A stretch of 64,000 bases of DNA, from contig NZ_WIVE01000013.1 in the NCBI RefSeq assembly GCF_009601025.1, positions 1 to 64,000 on the forward strand, given 5' to 3'. The notes under the pieces are model-generated. The model did no database searches and was not told the origin of the DNA. It was given only the letters and a program-made list of their open reading frames with translations. The translations under genes and the position numbers were made by a program. Shown here one piece after another: positions 15,229-22,950 of the stretch (its first letter is position 1; each line of letters starts with the position of its first letter). Source of the DNA: Roseospira navarrensis (GTDB lineage: Bacteria; Pseudomonadota; Alphaproteobacteria; Rhodospirillales; Rhodospirillaceae).

Positions 15229-16020
15229 CTACCCGCCCAGGCGGTAACCCGCCGTATCCTTGACCAGCAACGCCGGTTCGCGCGGGTCGCGCTCGATCTT
15301 GCGGCGCAGGCGGTGGATATGCGTTTCCAGGGTGTGCGAGGCCACGCCGTCGGCATAGCCCCAGACCTCCGCCAGCAGGCTGTCGCGCGACACGGGGGCG
15401 GCCGCGGCATGCAGGCAATCCAGGATGGCCGCTTCCTTTTCCGTCAGCGAGACGGTGCGGCCCGAGGCCCGGTCCGTCATCAGGCGGCCCGACGGGTTGC
15501 ACAGGAACGGCCCGAGCGCAAAGCCCGCGGGGGTGGGCGCGGCGGCGCCCTGAAGCAGATCCCGCAAGGCGGCCGCCAGCGTCGCCAGCCGCGCCGGCCG
15601 GTCCACCCGGACCACACCCGCCGGCCAGTCGGCGGCGGTCCCGCGCCCCGCCTCGTCCGGCGGAGCCATGACCAGCACGGGCAGGGCGGGCAGGGCGGTC
15701 CGCATCGCCGCGATGGCGGCCCCGGCCGCCGCCCCGTCGGTGGCGGAGACCACGACCGCGTCCCAGGGCGCGGGGTCGCCCGGCGGCGCGGCCGTCAGGG
15801 CGTCGGCCACCGATCGGGCCTCGGTGAGCGCGGCCGCGCCCAGGTGGGTGACGAGCTGACGGGCCAGGGCGCGGCGGGGCGCGTCCAGGGGGTCGATCAG
15901 CAACAGACGGGGGGGCTCACGACCCGACTCGGCGGCACCTGCCGGTCCCGAAACCGATCCGGGGGCCGGTCCCGGCGCGCTGGGCTCTTGCGTCCCGGGC
16001 GATCCTTGCTTACCTCTCAT
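15229..16020 (-). CDS. OmpR/PhoB-type winged-helix regulator with degenerate receiver
   Basis: This 263-residue protein ends in a clear Trans_reg_C winged-helix domain at about 165-262, with LTEKEAAILDCL, a VSRDSLLAEVWGY segment and a SHTLETHIHRLRRKIE recognition helix. The middle, about 36-150, is shaped like a receiver (LLLIDPLDAPRR at its first strand). However, the strand that should present the phospho-accepting Asp reads DAVVVSATDG, with Ser in its place. The first 35 residues are a disordered Gly/Pro-rich leader. It may bind DNA independently of phosphorylation or through another signal. No partner kinase is adjacent. It is divergent from the GTP cyclohydrolase gene and converges on dctM. 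Confidence 0.8.
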   Translation of the reverse strand: MRGKQGSPGTQEPSAPGPAPGSVSGPAGAAESGREPPRLLLIDPLDAPRRALARQLVTHLGAAALTEARSVADALTAAPPGDPAPWDAVVVSATDGAAAGAAIAAMRTALPALPVLVMAPPDEAGRGTAADWPAGVVRVDRPARLATLAAALRDLLQGAAAPTPAGFALGPFLCNPSGRLMTDRASGRTVSLTEKEAAILDCLHAAAAPVSRDSLLAEVWGYADGVASHTLETHIHRLRRKIERDPREPALLVKDTAGYRLGG

Positions 16021-16106
16021 GGCCTCTTCTTAGTCCGTTCCGGGCGCCGTCGCCAGTCCTTGCGCGGGGTCGCCGGGCGGCCCCGATCAGAGGCAGCTTC
16101 CTGGTC

Positions 16107-17276
16107 ATGAGTCCGGTTCCGCGCCCCCTTTCGCTGGAGACCCTGCGCGAGGGGTCCGACCTCCTCTCTCCCTACGCGGTCACGGCCCTCGACCGGGTCG
16201 GCCGCGCTGTCGCCGAATTGCGGCGCGGTGCGCCCGTGGTGGTGATCGGCCCGGGGGATGCGGTGGTCTGCGTCTCGGCCGAGGGCCTGGACGACGGTAT
16301 CGTGGCCCGGCTGACCGCCCTGGCCGGCAGCACGCCGGCGCTGCTGGTCACGGCGCGCCGGGCCTCCGTGCTGCGGCTGGCCGCGCCCGGGTCGGAGCCG
16401 GTGCGCCTGACCCTGCCCGGGCCGCTGACCGTGGACCAGTTGGACCATTTGGCCGATCCCGATCGGGAGGAGCCCACCCATCCGCCGGCCGGCACCACCG
16501 TGGAGCCGCTGCCGCCGGACAGCGGGGCGGGGGCGAGTGTGACCCTGGCCAAGCTGGCGCGCCTGCTGCCCGCGACTCTGGCCGCGCCGTGCCCGGGGCC
16601 GGCGCTGGAGGCCGCCGCCTGGGCCGCCGAACACGATCTGGTGGCCGTGGCCGCCGAGGACATCCTGGAGCATCACGAGGCCGCCGCCCGCGCCCTCCGG
16701 CCGGTGGGCGAGGCCCGCGTGCCCCTTGACGGCGCCGAGGACACCCGCGTCGTCGCCTTCCGCCCCGTGGACGGCGGCATCGAGCATCTGGCCATCGTGA
16801 TCGGCCGGCCCGATCCGGATCAGCCGGTGCTGACCCGTCTGCACTCCGAGTGCTTCACGGGCGACCTGCTGGGCTCGCTGCGCTGCGACTGCGGCGAACA
16901 GTTGCGCGGGGCGATCCTGGCCATCGCCGAGCAGGGCGCGGGCGTGCTGCTCTATCTGGCGCAGGAAGGACGCGGCATCGGGCTGGTGAACAAGCTGCGG
17001 GCCTACCGCCTGCAGGACGGCGGCTTCGACACCGTGGACGCCAACGAGCAGCTCGGCTTCGACGACGACGAGCGCATCTACTCCCCCGCCGCCGAGATGC
17101 TGCGCCACCTGGGGTTCCAGCGGGTCCGGCTGATGACCAACAATCCGCGCAAGATCAGCGCCCTGGCTCGCCACCGCATCGAGGTGACGGAGCGGGTGCC
17201 GCACACCTTCCCCGCCAACGCCCACAACGTGGGCTATCTGCGCGCCAAGGCCCGCCGCAGCGGTCATCTGTTCTGA
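16107..17276 (+). CDS. ribA: GTP cyclohydrolase II with degenerate RibB-like N-terminal region
   Basis: This 389-residue protein carries a full GTP cyclohydrolase II domain from about residue 200. The zinc-binding Cys set lies in HSECFTGDLLGSLRCDC near 246-262, followed by LYLAQEGRGIGLVNKLRAY and the basic LMTNNPRKI. This enzyme opens GTP to start riboflavin synthesis. The first 200 residues match a 3,4-dihydroxybutanone-phosphate synthase only in size and position. Its acidic and arginine catalytic motifs are not recognisable, so the N-terminal half is probably non-catalytic. The gene is divergent from the winged-helix regulator with an 86-base spacer. No FMN riboswitch can be fitted there. 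Confidence 0.92.
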   Translation: MSPVPRPLSLETLREGSDLLSPYAVTALDRVGRAVAELRRGAPVVVIGPGDAVVCVSAEGLDDGIVARLTALAGSTPALLVTARRASVLRLAAPGSEPVRLTLPGPLTVDQLDHLADPDREEPTHPPAGTTVEPLPPDSGAGASVTLAKLARLLPATLAAPCPGPALEAAAWAAEHDLVAVAAEDILEHHEAAARALRPVGEARVPLDGAEDTRVVAFRPVDGGIEHLAIVIGRPDPDQPVLTRLHSECFTGDLLGSLRCDCGEQLRGAILAIAEQGAGVLLYLAQEGRGIGLVNKLRAYRLQDGGFDTVDANEQLGFDDDERIYSPAAEMLRHLGFQRVRLMTNNPRKISALARHRIEVTERVPHTFPANAHNVGYLRAKARRSGHLF

Positions 17277-17285
17277 TCTGGATCG

Positions 17286-17315
17286 GCAATGAGCCGGAGT
17301 CGTCCGCTTCATTGC
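17286..17315. repeat. Palindromic repeat R3, divergent copy
   Basis: Thirteen-base arms GCAATGAGCCGGA and TCCGCTTCATTGC enclose the loop GTCG, with two mismatched positions. The layout matches the perfect copy at 53541-53570. It lies ten bases after the ribA stop and may act at the end of that transcript. Confidence 0.5.
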
Positions 17316-17386
17316 CTCCGCCGCCCCGGCCGGCCACGGCGTCCAACGGCCATCGTTAGATGCCGTTGGGATGTCTCCCGGCAGGG

Positions 17387-17836
17387 TCAGGTCCCGCCCT
17401 TGCCGAGCAGGCGGTCCACGTCCGCCTGGGTCAGGCCGCCCTGACTGGTGCTGATGGACTCGGCCTCCGGGGCCGCGCCGGCCGTGTCCGTTGGGGTCTC
17501 CACCGGCCGGTCCGTCAACCGCAGGGCGCCGGCCTTCAGCGTGGTCAGCCGCGACAGCAGGCCACGCACCCGCCGCACGCGCTGGCCGGCCACGTCCTGA
17601 AAGGCGCAGGATTCCATGATGGCCTCGATCCGCAGCCGGGTGGCGGGATCGGGCTCGCGCGCCATCAGCAGTTCGGCGAGGCCCAGGATCCGGGTGGCGG
17701 CTTTCTCCTGTTCGGCCAGCACGGCGTCGAGCTGGCCCACCGCCGCCCGCAGCGCCGCGTCCACCGCGCGCGGGTCGTTGAGGGCGAGCGGCGGACGCCG
17801 CCCGTCCCTGGTCAGTCGATCCGGTTGCCGCCCCAT
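17387..17836 (-). CDS. Miniature CheZ-like protein
   Basis: This 149-residue protein has a helical centre containing MESCAFQDVAGQRVRRV at residues 74-90. That matches the CheZ active helix pattern FQD-x3-GQ, placing the catalytic pair at Asp81 and Gln85. The C-terminus, LTQADVDRLL (135-144), matches the short CheZ tail that docks CheY. A flexible Pro/Thr/Ala segment joins the two. CheZ removes phosphate from CheY and usually exceeds 200 residues, so this is a trimmed form. The start at 17836 is chosen because a longer frame to 18022 reads through repeat DNA. No other chemotaxis gene is nearby, so its response-regulator partner is unknown. Confidence 0.7.
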   Translation of the reverse strand: MGRQPDRLTRDGRRPPLALNDPRAVDAALRAAVGQLDAVLAEQEKAATRILGLAELLMAREPDPATRLRIEAIMESCAFQDVAGQRVRRVRGLLSRLTTLKAGALRLTDRPVETPTDTAGAAPEAESISTSQGGLTQADVDRLLGKGGT

Positions 17837-18143
17837 CGTCACGCCCCGTTTCTCATCGCCAGACGGTGCAAGAAACGGGGCGGCAAGTCCAGAACCCTTC
17901 GGTCTTCTTGCTGATCGGCGAGGACCCGGACGAATCCGGTTCATCTCGGAACACCGGGGTCGCGTGGTGTCTGGCCCATGGCGGCCACCGGAACACCCCC
18001 TCCCCAACCCGCCCCATTCCATGGGGGAGGTTGGGAGGGGGGTCTGGCGCGAAGGGCGGGGTGCCCCGCCCTACGACGTCTCGCCGTTCGCCAAACGTGT
18101 CGTCACCCGATCACCCCAGCGTATGGACTCGCCACGGGCCGCA
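17837..18143. other. Spacer filled by repeats between cheZ-like and dienelactone hydrolase genes
   Basis: This 307-base spacer shows no plausible gene. It holds an R3-like half palindrome at 17925-17945, the minus-strand copy of the R2 composite repeat at 17937-18072, and about 70 bases with no recognisable feature before the hydrolase stop. The upstream region of the CheZ-like gene must lie within it, but no promoter was recognised. Confidence 0.6.
17937..18072 (-). repeat. Composite repeat R2, copy a
   Basis: Read on the minus strand it shows a GTAGGGCGGGG hairpin (18053-18061 with 18064-18072), then a CCCTCCCAACCTCCCCCATG palindrome. A conserved tail containing ACCACG-x-GACCCCGGT-x-TTCCG follows. 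The same order of modules recurs on the plus strand at 25116-25322, where about 50 extra bases sit between the palindrome arms. A trailing GATGAACCGGA module links it to family R3. Confidence 0.7.
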
Positions 18144-18929
18144 TCACGCCTTCAGGTGCTGGGCGAGGAAGGCGAGGGTGCGCGACCAGGACAGGCGCGC
18201 GTCCTCTTCGTCATAGCGCCCGCCCGACGGGTTGGCGAAGGCGTGGTCGGCTTCGTACCAGTGCACCGTCAGGCTGTCGGCCTTGCCGGCCTCGGCCATG
18301 GCGGCTTCGAAGCCACCCACCATCTCGGCGTTGATGAACCCGTCCTGGGTGGCGAAGTGGCCCAGCACCGGCCCCTTGAGGGCCTTGAGCGGCTCCGCCT
18401 CCTGCACCAGACGGCCGTAGTAGATCACCGTGGCGTCCGCCGGCGCCGCCAGCGAGGCGTTCAGCGACCAGCCGCCGCCGAAGCACCAGCCCACCGTCGC
18501 CAGGGTGCCGGTCCCGGCCTCGTGGGCGCGCAGCCAGTCCATCCAGGCGGTGCAGGTCTCGGTGGCGTCGGCCCCGTCCACGGCCTGCATCTGGGCGCGG
18601 GCCTCGTCGGGTGTGGTCGCCACGGACCCGTCCATCAGGTCAATGGCCAGCGCCACATAGCCGTTGGCGGCGTACTCGCGCGCCGTGGCCTTGATCTGGT
18701 CGTTCAGGCCCCACCACTCGTGGATCAGCATGACCGTGGGCGCGGGCAGGGTCTCGGGCAGGGCCAGGGCGGCCGAGACGGTCTTGCCGGATGACAGGGT
18801 GAGGGTGACGGTCTCGGTCTCCGAGGCGGCGGCGCGGGCCAGGATCGGATCGGCGAGCACGGCGGCGAACGAGGCCCCGGCGAGGCCCTTCATGACGGTG
18901 CGGCGGCCGATCTGGGTGTCATCGAGCAT
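18144..18929 (-). CDS. Tat-exported dienelactone hydrolase family protein
   Basis: This 261-residue hydrolase starts at 18929 with GGGAGAG upstream. The N-terminus carries a twin-arginine signal (GRRTVMKGLAGASF, residues 8-21) that should send a folded enzyme to the periplasm. The body is a dienelactone hydrolase fold. It has a Cys nucleophile in GWCFGGG (Cys149), Asp196 in ATQDGF and His229 in EADHAF, giving the Cys-Asp-His triad of the family. Family members hydrolyse lactones or esters; the substrate here is unknown. It stands alone, with an upstream spacer of 100 bases shared with the divergent nuclease-like gene. Confidence 0.88.
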   Translation of the reverse strand: MLDDTQIGRRTVMKGLAGASFAAVLADPILARAAASETETVTLTLSSGKTVSAALALPETLPAPTVMLIHEWWGLNDQIKATAREYAANGYVALAIDLMDGSVATTPDEARAQMQAVDGADATETCTAWMDWLRAHEAGTGTLATVGWCFGGGWSLNASLAAPADATVIYYGRLVQEAEPLKALKGPVLGHFATQDGFINAEMVGGFEAAMAEAGKADSLTVHWYEADHAFANPSGGRYDEEDARLSWSRTLAFLAQHLKA

Positions 18930-19029
18930 GGTCGTCTCTCCCGGACATGCGTATGGTTGTGGATGGGGCGGGGCTCGCGGAAACCCGTTCGGCCCTGCCG
19001 GTTGGCCAGATCCTTTAGAATGCGTCCAG

Positions 19030-19905
19030 ATGATACATGGCGAAGGCACGGGAGGGATCAAGCGGCCCGCAGCGATATCGACCGCCTGCGGGCGCCGGTC
19101 GGTGCTGGCGGGGGCTGCGGCTTGGATCGCGCTGCGGCCGGGCGGCGCCCGGGGCGGCGCGCCGGCCCGCGACCTGGAGCCGGAGCCGGGCGGGCGTGTG
19201 CGCGCGCTGGGGCGCGACGCCAGCCTGATCCTGGAGGACGGCCGCCGGGTGCGGCTGTGCGCGCTCCGCCTGCCCGATCCGGCGGACCTGCCGGAGGGCG
19301 CGACGGCGGCGGAGACCGCGCGGGTGACGGCCTATGCCGAGGCCGCGCGGGCGTGGCTGGCGGCTCGGGCCGTGGGGGCCTCCGTGGCGCTGTGGAGTCC
19401 CGAGGTCGCCCGCGATCGGCACGGGCGGGGGCTGGCGCAGGTCCGCGTGGGCGGGTCGGACGGTCCGTGGCTGCAAGCCGGCCTGCTGGCCGCCGGTCTG
19501 GCCCGGGTGGCGACCATGCCGGGGGCGGCGGCGGGCGCGCCTGCGCTGCTGAGCGTCGAGGCCGCGGCCCGCCGCGCCGGCCGGGGCCTGTGGCGCGATC
19601 CGCTCTATCGCCCCCGTGCGCCGGGCGCGACGTGGCCCTGGCTCGGGACCTTCCAGATCGTGCGCGGCACGGTGCGGGACGCGGCCAAGGTGCGCGGGCG
19701 GATCTATCTGAACTACGGCGACGACTGGCGGCGGGATTTTACGGTGCGCATCGACCGGCCGTCGCGGATCGGCTTCCGGGTGGCCGACCTGCTGGAGCTG
19801 CGCCGCCAGTTCATCCAGGTGCGCGGCTGGCTGTTCGCCACCAACGGCCCGATGATCCTGCTCGACCACCCGGCGGCGCTGGAGACCCGGGTCACCCTCG
19901 GGTGA
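19030..19905 (+). CDS. Thermonuclease (SNase-like) family protein
   Basis: From the ATG at 19030 this is a 291-residue protein with a twin-arginine-like leader (CGRRSVLAGAAAWIAL) and then a staphylococcal-nuclease-type beta-barrel. Supporting segments are RVRLCALRLPDP, with the strand-borne arginine, and ARDRHGRGLAQVRV, matching the family D-x-YGR-x-LA pattern. The extracytoplasmic location follows from the leader. No strong Shine-Dalgarno site precedes the ATG, and a GTG at 19098 is an alternative. The C-terminal 100 residues lie beyond the usual SNase core. Catalytic residues are only partly recognisable, so nuclease activity is uncertain. Its last 14 bases overlap the converging kinase-like gene. 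Confidence 0.7.
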   Translation: MIHGEGTGGIKRPAAISTACGRRSVLAGAAAWIALRPGGARGGAPARDLEPEPGGRVRALGRDASLILEDGRRVRLCALRLPDPADLPEGATAAETARVTAYAEAARAWLAARAVGASVALWSPEVARDRHGRGLAQVRVGGSDGPWLQAGLLAAGLARVATMPGAAAGAPALLSVEAAARRAGRGLWRDPLYRPRAPGATWPWLGTFQIVRGTVRDAAKVRGRIYLNYGDDWRRDFTVRIDRPSRIGFRVADLLELRRQFIQVRGWLFATNGPMILLDHPAALETRVTLG

Positions 19906-21997
19906 GGCCGGTGCGGATCATCGGCAGGCCGGGGTCCTCGCCGCTGTCGTCGCGGGTCCAGTCCGGCGGGAGCGAGTCGTCGGGGCCGTCGCCGGCCTGC
20001 AGCGGCAGGGACAGCGACACCCGGGTGCCCCGCCCCGCGCCCTCGACGATGTCCAGGGCCTCGCCCAGGGCGGCGCGCGCCAGACCGTCCGCCAGCAGCA
20101 GGGCGGCGGCGTCCGGGGCCTCGCGCAGGGCGTGGGCCAGCCGCTCGGGCGCGCGCCGCAGACCGCGCGCCATGCGCGGCGGGTGGATCAGGGCGAGCAG
20201 GCCCTCGGCCGGCATCGGCCCGTCGTCGTCGATGGTCAGCCGCACGCGGGCGTCGCTGCCCAGCGCGACATCCACGACGATGCCGGACAGCGGGAACGTG
20301 GGGGCGTCGGCGGTGCGGTCCACGGCATCCTCGGCGCGCAGCATGGCGGCCTCGATGATGTAGCAGACCACGGCGGTGAGGATCCCCGGCGCGGCCTCCA
20401 CCGTGGCCGACATGGGACAGCGCAGGTCCAGCCGCACGCCGCGAGAGGCCAGCCGGGGCGTCAGGACGGTGGCCACCTCGCGCATCACCCGGTCCATGGC
20501 GAGGGGCGCGCGGCCGCGCCCACCCGCCTCGGGCGACGACATCAGCCGCAGGGCCGAGACCAGGTGCGCGGCCTCGCCCGCCTGGTCGGCCAACGCCGCG
20601 CAGGCCTCGCCCACCAGATGGGCGGCCAGCGCCGCCCGTTCCGACGACACGTCGTCGCGCCGACCGCCGCCGGGGGTGGACAGCAGGCGGGCCTCGCTCC
20701 GGGCCAGGGTGGCCTGGGCGCGCACGGCATCCAGCAGGCCATCCAGCACCCGCGCCGCCTCGGCGAGATTGCGGCCGACCACCGCTTCCGGCGCCGCGCC
20801 CAGCAGCGCCCCGGAGAGGGTTTCCTGATCGCGCCGCGCATCGGCCTCGGCATCGCGGGCGGCGCGGTCCACGGCCGCGTCGGCTTCGGTGGCCGTGACC
20901 AGCCGCTCCAGCGTGGCCCAGGAGGCGCTTTCGCCCACGGCCGGTCGGTTGGCGGGCTCGAAGCCGAGCGCCCGGGCGCGGGCCACCAGCCGCGCCAGCG
21001 GCCGGGCGTGGCCGGCGAGCGCGATCCAGCCCACGGCCAGAAGCACCGCCGTCCCGGCGAGTCCCAGCGCCAGCAGCGCGGCCCGCAGCCGCGCCGTCTC
21101 GGCGGACAGGACACCGTCCGCGCCGCGCAGGCCGGTCTCGGCGGCCTGAAGGGCGATGTCGGCGGCGCGGGCGAGGGCGCCGTCGGCCTGCGCCCACAGG
21201 GTATCGCGGGTGACCTGATCGGACAGGTCGGCGCGGCGATAGGCGGGGATGTCGAGGGCCTCGGCGATCGCGCCGTGGATCGCGAAGGGCGAGCCGCCGA
21301 GGCGCGGCGCATCGGGGTCCGGTCCGGCGGCGATGGCGCGCGCGGCCAGCCGTCGGGCGTCGGCCTCCAGCACGGACAGGGCCGGCCCGGAGGCGGCGCC
21401 CGCCTGCGCCAGCACCGCGTGCAGACGCGCCAGCAGGACCGCGCGACCGGGCGCGGCGTCGTCCGCGTCCACCGTCGGCCCGGGTGTGGGCGCGCTTTGG
21501 GCGAGCCGCTCCAGCCGGTCCAGGGCGGCGGCGATCAGGGCATGCCACAGCGTTTGGCGCGCGCTGGCCGTGGCGAGTCGGGCGGCGGCGGCGGTGGCGG
21601 TCTCCAGGGCGACGCCGAAGTCCGGCGGCAGGCCCGCGCGCCACAGGGGATCGGCGGTCAGCACGCGCAGCCGGGCCAGGGCCTGACGGCGGGCCTCCGC
21701 CCCCGACGGCCCCGGCGCGGCATGCCGGATCTGGCGGGTCAGGCCGCGCAGGCCCTCGGCGGCGCGGGCGACGGTGGCATGGTCGAGGGCCGCGTGGTGG
21801 ACCGCCGGCATGGTTGCGGTCCGGGCCTCGGTCTCCAGCAGCCGCCAGCCCACCAGGGCGCTCGGGCCGGCCAGCAGCAGGACGGCCAGCAGGCCGAGGA
21901 CGAGGGCGCCCAGGACCGGCCGGGGACGCCCGACGCGGGGCCGACCGGCCCCACGGGTGGACGCCTCGTCGTCGGAGCGGTCGCGCGCGGGGGTCAT
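19892..21997 (-). CDS. Membrane histidine-kinase-like protein with degenerate catalytic boxes
   Basis: This 701-residue protein has membrane helices at about 28-50 and 305-328 enclosing a 250-residue helical extracytoplasmic sensor, then a cytoplasmic HAMP-like and coiled region. A GHKL ATPase-like domain occupies about 500-680. The G2-like GRGTRVSLSLPL is clear. The N-box position reads VVCYIIEAAML, without the usual Asn, and the G1 position reads DDDGPMP rather than D-x-G-x-G. A possible H-box is AAHLVGEAC. Kinase activity is therefore doubtful and a scaffold or phosphatase role is possible. It overlaps the upstream binding-protein gene by four bases. No response regulator is adjacent. Confidence 0.65.
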   Translation of the reverse strand: MTPARDRSDDEASTRGAGRPRVGRPRPVLGALVLGLLAVLLLAGPSALVGWRLLETEARTATMPAVHHAALDHATVARAAEGLRGLTRQIRHAAPGPSGAEARRQALARLRVLTADPLWRAGLPPDFGVALETATAAAARLATASARQTLWHALIAAALDRLERLAQSAPTPGPTVDADDAAPGRAVLLARLHAVLAQAGAASGPALSVLEADARRLAARAIAAGPDPDAPRLGGSPFAIHGAIAEALDIPAYRRADLSDQVTRDTLWAQADGALARAADIALQAAETGLRGADGVLSAETARLRAALLALGLAGTAVLLAVGWIALAGHARPLARLVARARALGFEPANRPAVGESASWATLERLVTATEADAAVDRAARDAEADARRDQETLSGALLGAAPEAVVGRNLAEAARVLDGLLDAVRAQATLARSEARLLSTPGGGRRDDVSSERAALAAHLVGEACAALADQAGEAAHLVSALRLMSSPEAGGRGRAPLAMDRVMREVATVLTPRLASRGVRLDLRCPMSATVEAAPGILTAVVCYIIEAAMLRAEDAVDRTADAPTFPLSGIVVDVALGSDARVRLTIDDDGPMPAEGLLALIHPPRMARGLRRAPERLAHALREAPDAAALLLADGLARAALGEALDIVEGAGRGTRVSLSLPLQAGDGPDDSLPPDWTRDDSGEDPGLPMIRTGLTRG

Positions 21998-22950
21998 GGG
22001 CGGGCCTCCGACGCTGCCGCGCCATGGGGGAGCGCGCGGGCGGGGATCACCGTGGCCACGGGGTCGCCGCCGGCGCGCACCAGACTGCGCAGGGCGCCGG
22101 CCCGGTCCAGGGCCGCCAGGGCGGTTCCGGCGGCTTCGGCCAGGCCCCGGTCGCCGGATGCCAGCGCCAGCGCCGCCGCCCCACCGGCGGGCGGGGCGGA
22201 CAGCGGCGGTCCCAGCGCCACCAGATCGCGGCCTTGCGGCTCCGCGAGTTCGGACAGGGCCATGGCGAGCGGGAGCAGGGCCGCATCAGCTTCGCCCCGG
22301 TGCAGGGCGTCCAGCCCGGCCCGGGGATGCTCGGCCAGAACGACGGTGGCCCCCGGGGCGTCCATGTCGGCCAGGGCCCGGGCCTGATCGGTGCCGGAGG
22401 CGGCCACGACAACCCGCCCGGCGAGCCGGTCGGGCGCCGTCCGCGCCTCCAGGTCCGGCCACAGGCCGGCGCGGCCGATCAGCAGCGAGGCCACGCGGGC
22501 ATGGGGGGCGAGGAACCGGACCCGCGCGGCGCGGTCGGGAGTCACCGCCAGATCGGCGGCCACCAGATCCACCGCGCCCGCTTCCAGGGCCTCCAGCAGG
22601 CGGTCGGCGGGCAGGATCGCGAACGCGCAGTCAATGTCCAGCCGCTCGCACACGGCGCGCGCGACGGTCACATGCACGCCCGCCGGACGGCCGTCGGGGC
22701 CGGCGCCGGACAGGGGCAGGGCGCCCTCCTGGACCGCGACGGTCAGCGACCGGGTGCCGGGCAGCGAAGAGGCGGCCGGGCGGGGGGGCTCGGCCAGGGG
22801 GGCGGCGACGGGCAGGGCCGCGCGCAGGCCGAAGACTCCCGCGCCGGCCAGCAGCAGGAGGAGGACCGCCGCGCCCGCCCCGGTGGCGGCGCGCCGGCCC
22901 CGATGACGGCGGGACGCGGCGCCGTTCGCCTGGGGGTTACTCGGTCTCAC
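21994..22950 (-). CDS. Membrane-anchored periplasmic solute-binding-like protein
   Basis: This 318-residue protein has a basic N-terminus (RRHRGRR) and one uncleaved-looking helix at about 24-42. A type II periplasmic-binding domain follows (SBP_bac_3-like), with RSLTVAVQEGALPLSG opening it and GAVDLVAADLAVTPDRAARV in its middle. Such domains bind amino acids or act as sensor modules. With no permease or ATPase nearby and a kinase-like gene overlapping by four bases (ATGA), it probably serves as a separate ligand-sensing subunit. The first gene of the unit overlaps by 14 bases. The ligand is unknown. Confidence 0.7.
   Translation of the reverse strand: MRPSNPQANGAASRRHRGRRAATGAGAAVLLLLLAGAGVFGLRAALPVAAPLAEPPRPAASSLPGTRSLTVAVQEGALPLSGAGPDGRPAGVHVTVARAVCERLDIDCAFAILPADRLLEALEAGAVDLVAADLAVTPDRAARVRFLAPHARVASLLIGRAGLWPDLEARTAPDRLAGRVVVAASGTDQARALADMDAPGATVVLAEHPRAGLDALHRGEADAALLPLAMALSELAEPQGRDLVALGPPLSAPPAGGAAALALASGDRGLAEAAGTALAALDRAGALRSLVRAGGDPVATVIPARALPHGAAASEARP

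Follow-up and report, generated by a model that had tools for sequence, protein, structure and literature searches.

In CheZ, Gln147 orients a water molecule in the active site of the receiver while an acidic partner forms a bond with the lysine of the receiver (PMC3035606). The E. coli protein has been described as consisting of an N-terminal helix (residues 1-34), a hairpin (35-168), a linker and a C-terminal helix (199-214) (PMC7750401). According to the same source, CheZ of Azorhizobium caulinodans (236 aa) comprises an N-terminal region of 86 residues, the pair D165/Q169 and a C-terminal helix; its bundle is shorter than that of E. coli CheZ, its N-terminal region longer. Two putative CheZs have been reported for Rhodospirillum centenum, one of which is encoded beside a cheY-like gene (PMC2890560). 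For Sinorhizobium meliloti, a small protein, CheT, was described which contains a DXXXQ motif, yields a CheZ-like AlphaFold model and favours one of two CheYs. It is reported to be encoded in the chemotaxis cluster, to bind CheR and to lack significant homology to known chemotaxis proteins (PMC12654446). By this account, CheT is an example of a small DXXXQ phosphatase from the Alphaproteobacteria (PMC12654446).

The DNA analyzed here is a stretch of 64,000 nucleotides of Roseospira navarrensis (the window), located on contig C44 of its genome. It contains a compact CheZ-like gene on the minus strand, starting with an ATG at position 17836. The gene, its predicted parts and the segment in which it lies are as follows.

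17387-17836, minus strand: compact CheZ-like protein P0001, 149 aa (open reading frame, orthologues, purifying selection in the hairpin)
17660-17773, minus strand: predicted helix A of the hairpin, residues 22-59 (AlphaFold; E44, R49 and E55 invariant in 21/21 aligned orthologues)
17540-17647, minus strand: predicted helix B with the active-site motif, residues 64-99 (AlphaFold; aligns with residues 127 onward of E. coli CheZ)
17582-17596, minus strand: D81-x3-Q85, the equivalent of E. coli CheZ D143/Q147 (1KMI alignment; D and Q in 21/21)
17438-17539, minus strand: linker, residues 100-133, predicted to be unstructured (pLDDT below 50 at residues 120-132; high pN)
17402-17437, minus strand: putative C-terminal docking peptide GLTQADVDRLLG, residues 134-145 (model helix 137-145; alignment with the E. 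coli CheZ C-terminus)
17277-18145, no strand assigned: 869-bp segment holding the gene; Roseospira marina has 30 bp between the same two genes (L102:4975-5004)

An alternative in-frame start upstream of the ATG would give a product of 211 aa, while the similarity of the congeners' proteins begins only at about residues 7-18 of the 149-aa version. Long open frames on the opposite strand are common in the window and one relative possesses a frame-split copy, as might be expected if 17387-17836 were a chance or decaying frame in GC-rich DNA. This is hardly conceivable, though, because the gene is kept in five congeners with a low hairpin pN and a clade of 24 genomes carries compact CheZ; the substitution pattern already contradicts this explanation. 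The initial annotation was correct on the frame of 149 residues and on D81 and Q85, and the pattern exceeds what chance would produce. It had also recognized the active helix, but spelled the motif FQD-x3-GQ. The protein reads F79 Q80 D81 V82 A83 G84 Q85, i.e. FQD-x2-GQ (D-x3-Q). The TQADVDRLL tail was borne out at residues 136-144, within GLTQADVDRLL (134-144).

A single-chain AlphaFold model built with 21 sequences predicted helices at residues 22-59, 64-99 and 137-145 and none before residue 22. Block means of pLDDT were 93-98 for residues 41-80, 83 for residues 81-100 and below 50 at residues 120-132 (overall 77.1); the pTM of 0.49 means that the packing of the helices is unsure. Since a hairpin (22-59/64-99) is predicted, the long dimer bundle thought at the outset to be missing is better described as shortened, whereas the reading as a compact CheZ with an active helix and a putative CheY-docking tail stood. 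Nucleotide comparisons with the five congeners fit a protein of three putative parts, in which hairpin and tail evolve more slowly and the linker fast. Values of pN were 0.09-0.21 for the hairpin (pS 0.46-0.61) and 0.10-0.22 for the tail, which has only 14 codons (pS 0.34-0.52), versus 0.44-0.55 for the linker (pS 0.45-0.77). In all 21 aligned orthologues, E75, C77, D81 and Q85 are invariant, as are G134, L135, Q137, V140, D141, L143 and L144 of the tail. A tail as invariant as the active site might also be found in a receiver binder devoid of phosphatase activity, which would compete for, tether or localize CheY-P via this peptide, and in one congener copy (L053:4-414) F79, Q80 and G84 are replaced by V, Y and D, respectively. 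Such a function appears quite improbable, given that D81 and Q85 are kept throughout the 21 proteins, L053 included.

The relationship to CheZ became visible with profiles. On its own, the window protein matched Pfam CheZ (PF04344) with an E-value of 0.011 (16.1 bits), below the gathering cut-off of 30.7, and gave no NCBIfam match. Its orthologues matched the Pfam family in 20 of 21 cases and NCBIfam PRK11166.1 (CheZ) in 18 of 21 at E<=0.1, with best values of 2.3e-7 and 1.2e-7, respectively. A profile of 15 orthologues ranked E. coli CheZ (1KMI) first among 177,635 PDB sequences (E 5.7e-4), followed by a designed protein at E 5.9. The 1KMI alignment pairs D81/Q85 with D143/Q147 and covers the tail. 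All 16 longer CheZs tested were matched by the compact profile (E 1.8e-12 to 1.2e-8), while the best E-value of 20 column-shuffled profiles against them was 73; the 16 proteins are not a blind sample, as they owed their selection to a Pfam CheZ match or to resemblance to the window protein. An hhalign comparison with the three longer CheZs of the same genome alone gave a probability of 98.8. The alignments support homology of the compact protein to CheZ. From profile and clade evidence together, it is best placed in a clade of compact CheZ-like proteins and not among the canonical CheZs, since the single protein falls below the Pfam cut-off.

Fold searches were less specific. Foldseek with the model against the PDB yielded 106 matches at E<=10, not one of which reached E<=0.001, VIA-align gave only generic helical bundles among the matches listed (best Z 9.7), and CheZ was absent from the best 50 matches of each search. 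For a plain hairpin, this absence says nothing against a CheZ fold. The Foldseek list was headed by histidine-kinase dimerization domains, which raises the question of a histidine phosphotransfer (HPt) or kinase-dimerization (DHp) hairpin. The window protein does not contain a single histidine, which already contradicts this assignment and makes its probability practically negligible.

Like E. coli CheZ (PF04344, 1KMI), the window protein has a DxxxQ catalytic helix and a putative C-terminal docking peptide, both of which can be aligned. By contrast, no N-terminal helix is predicted before residue 22, its predicted hairpin spans residues 22-99 only and the active Asp follows the turn after approximately 18 residues, compared to approximately 43 in E. 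coli CheZ with its turn near residue 100. With A. caulinodans CheZ, taken as representative of the longer alphaproteobacterial proteins, it shares a shortened hairpin (predicted here), the catalytic D/Q and the C-terminal helix. The compact clade goes further in that the 86-residue N-terminal region has been dropped, and it forms a clade of its own. The AXXFQ motif preceding the active site of the A. caulinodans protein is present with its alanine (A76) in 15 of 21 compact orthologues; in the window protein, this residue is replaced by S76. CheT, compared by its description only, is likewise a small protein with a DXXXQ helix, but unlike CheT the compact clade matches CheZ profiles, and the CheT gene belongs to a chemotaxis cluster, whereas the compact gene has no CheY gene nearby at 12 loci and infC beside it at 16 of 24. 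Two short CheZ-like proteins encoded by Caulobacterales (L070, L072) resemble the window protein in their length and the motif EACAFQDLTGQ. They matched Pfam CheZ with an E-value of 0.0008 and not at all, respectively, and were not placed in the tree of compact and longer CheZs. Their genes lie directly between cheY and a second regulator gene, with a CheW-like gene within about 5 kb (che cluster genes around L070/L072 were labelled by eye, as were those around L114). The second regulators (L070:10230-10901 and L072:10333-10926), which adjoin cheY and the short CheZ-like gene, end in SQDDISALFD and SQNDIDSLFD, similar to the docking tail of CheZ.

Orthologues at E<=1e-10 were detected in 16 of 60 relatives, comprising the window's genome, all five congeners sampled (57-69% identity) and ten others. 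The gene is conserved among purple spiral bacteria. The named collection yielded 24 loci, among them those of Roseospira marina, Rhodospira trueperi, Caenispirillum, Roseospirillum parvum, Oleispirillum and Insolitispirillum. We infer that Rhodospirillum rubrum (G031) is a carrier as well, with an orthologue of 121 aa (L040:10269-10631), and the group with the compact clade would thus include this species. Among 297 genomes sampled from the order, 24 scored 78-185 bits with the compact profile and the others 58 bits at most; the count of 24 may be a lower bound, as up to 13 candidates were scored per genome. Some match at E<=1e-9 was present in 207 of the 297 genomes. The proteins of the clade are 118-160 aa long in the alignment. 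In a phylogeny computed for 23 compact and 16 longer proteins, from which L024 (searched motif absent) and the frame-split L048 (outside the alignments) were left out, the two groups separated with a support of 100/100, which shows that compact CheZs constitute a clade distinct from the longer ones. One of the 24 carriers (G016) has a frame-split gene. At L048:9929-10292 (the L069 locus), a compact CheZ gene is split over two frames; the split may be genuine or may stem from an error of assembly. With some 120-150 residues, these proteins represent a natural minimal CheZ and may serve as a model for how short the bundle can get. They do not reveal new chemistry.

The genome of the window additionally encodes three longer CheZ-like proteins that exceed the Pfam cut-off; hence, the compact protein is not the sole CheZ. 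In relatives, it is the longer CheZ gene that adjoins cheY (resembling the one at C146): at 14 of 20 loci the two lie no more than about 1.5 kb apart. By comparison, cheY was not found at any of 12 compact loci in the flanks of up to 10 kb per side (this check excluded L038, L041 and L047), nor did the longer CheZ genes of the window's genome (L106-L108) have a cheY nearby. These data do not agree with the suggestion that the compact protein is the chemotaxis phosphatase of this lineage. The initial statement that chemotaxis genes are not close by is borne out within the reach of CheY, CheW and receiver searches: two CheYs of the genome did not match the window at E<=1e-12, contig C44 contains none of the genome's CheW or receiver matches, and the nearest regulator gave no receiver match.

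CheW is encoded by all 16 carriers among the 60 relatives, which favours a chemosensory target. Within the GTDB family of the window, compact CheZ occurs in 15 of 25 CheW-positive but in none of 11 CheW-negative genomes (raw genome counts, uncorrected for relatedness), and the seven family genomes with FliM but without CheW all lack it. One carrier, G008 (81% complete), is without a FliM match. This pattern suggests a connection with CheA-linked signalling more than with flagella per se. Conversely, ten of the 25 CheW-positive family genomes, and 29 of 45 overall, lack compact CheZ, and chemotaxis therefore does not require it.

As to the substrate, it had been proposed at the outset that the protein might dephosphorylate a stand-alone response regulator, which would be a receiver outside chemotaxis. 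The genome offers 52 receiver-domain matches and in most carriers the gene lies away from chemotaxis genes. In two congeners, a single-domain regulator is encoded one gene (ABC-F-like) away, and a regulator with a receiver (LuxR type) is encoded from 90 bases downstream in one Caenispirillum. Neither neighbour is conserved, however, and the orthologue of the former regulator in the window's genome (L109) has no compact CheZ gene beside it. Together with the presence of CheW in every carrier of that set, this renders a non-chemotaxis receiver rather unlikely as the substrate. It is more probable that P0001 and its orthologues are CheZ paralogues acting as auxiliary phosphatases, which accelerate the dephosphorylation of a CheY-type receiver fed by CheA. 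The CheA of the genome (L112:1419-4301) combines two CheW domains with a C-terminal receiver; the genome also encodes a separate CheW and single-domain CheYs at C146 and C135. The latter two (G000, L115:7423-7821 and L114:8425-8793) would be the leading candidate substrates fed by this CheA. Two hairpins may pair into a short four-helix bundle, while the C-terminal helix would dock on the receiver. As in E. coli CheZ, Q85 would then enter the active site of the receiver and position a water molecule, and D81 would bond to its lysine. The compact protein would exert this activity beside the three longer CheZs. Why carrier bacteria keep several CheZ-type phosphatases thereby becomes testable.

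In 16 of 24 carriers, the compact gene is located within about 1.5 kb of infC (Pfam IF3), in 11 of these loci on the same strand and in five on the opposite strand, and in several infC-linked loci the L35 gene lies on the far side. The literature listings and abstract openings searched contained no report on a compact CheZ beside infC. A conserved clade of compact CheZ is found at a locus that motility studies would pass over. There is a slim chance that a stand-alone second CheZ next to infC and L35 ties, in species with the same-strand arrangement, the lifetime of CheY-P to the expression of the translation machinery. If so, faster growth would entail more phosphatase and a faster reset of the swimming signal. 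Eight carriers are without infC linkage, namely the five sampled Roseospira/Rhodospira genomes, G031, G086 and G016. In the genome of the window, the gene that comes after infC is RNase D-like. The labels ABC-F, rodA, prfB, thrS, pheS/pheT, rplT, RNase D and LuxR-type were assigned by eye.

Among six congeners, the compact gene occurs at several different places, with the flanking order kept at two sites. The order regulator, GTP cyclohydrolase II, dienelactone hydrolase is common to the window and R. marina, and the 869-bp segment was defined by blastn of window positions 16000-20000 against the R. marina locus (L102). At the ABC-F site, two congeners contain the compact gene while the window's genome (L109:9326-9356) does not. 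The gene has moved within the genus. The upstream part of the segment is a dispersed intergenic repeat (window 17877-18060) with 61 matches in the genome at E<=0.001, the query included. A shared repeat as the carrier of these moves was considered and rejected, since the repeat of the window was not found beside the copies of five congeners. Neither was a conserved partner gene identified, as the neighbours in the window were unmatched around 15 loci of relatives.

Two further genes of the window may be mentioned. The OmpR-type regulator beside GTP cyclohydrolase II (15229-15978, minus strand) matched only the DNA-binding domain in Pfam and no receiver. Its N-terminal half looks receiver-like by eye, and a similar gene adjoins the cyclohydrolase gene in R. 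marina (L102). The gene at 19892-21997 (minus strand) encodes a protein of 701 aa that has no Pfam match at E<=0.01 and by eye resembles a diverged sensor kinase; it overlaps a gene for a family-3 solute-binding protein (21994-22950, minus strand) by four bases.
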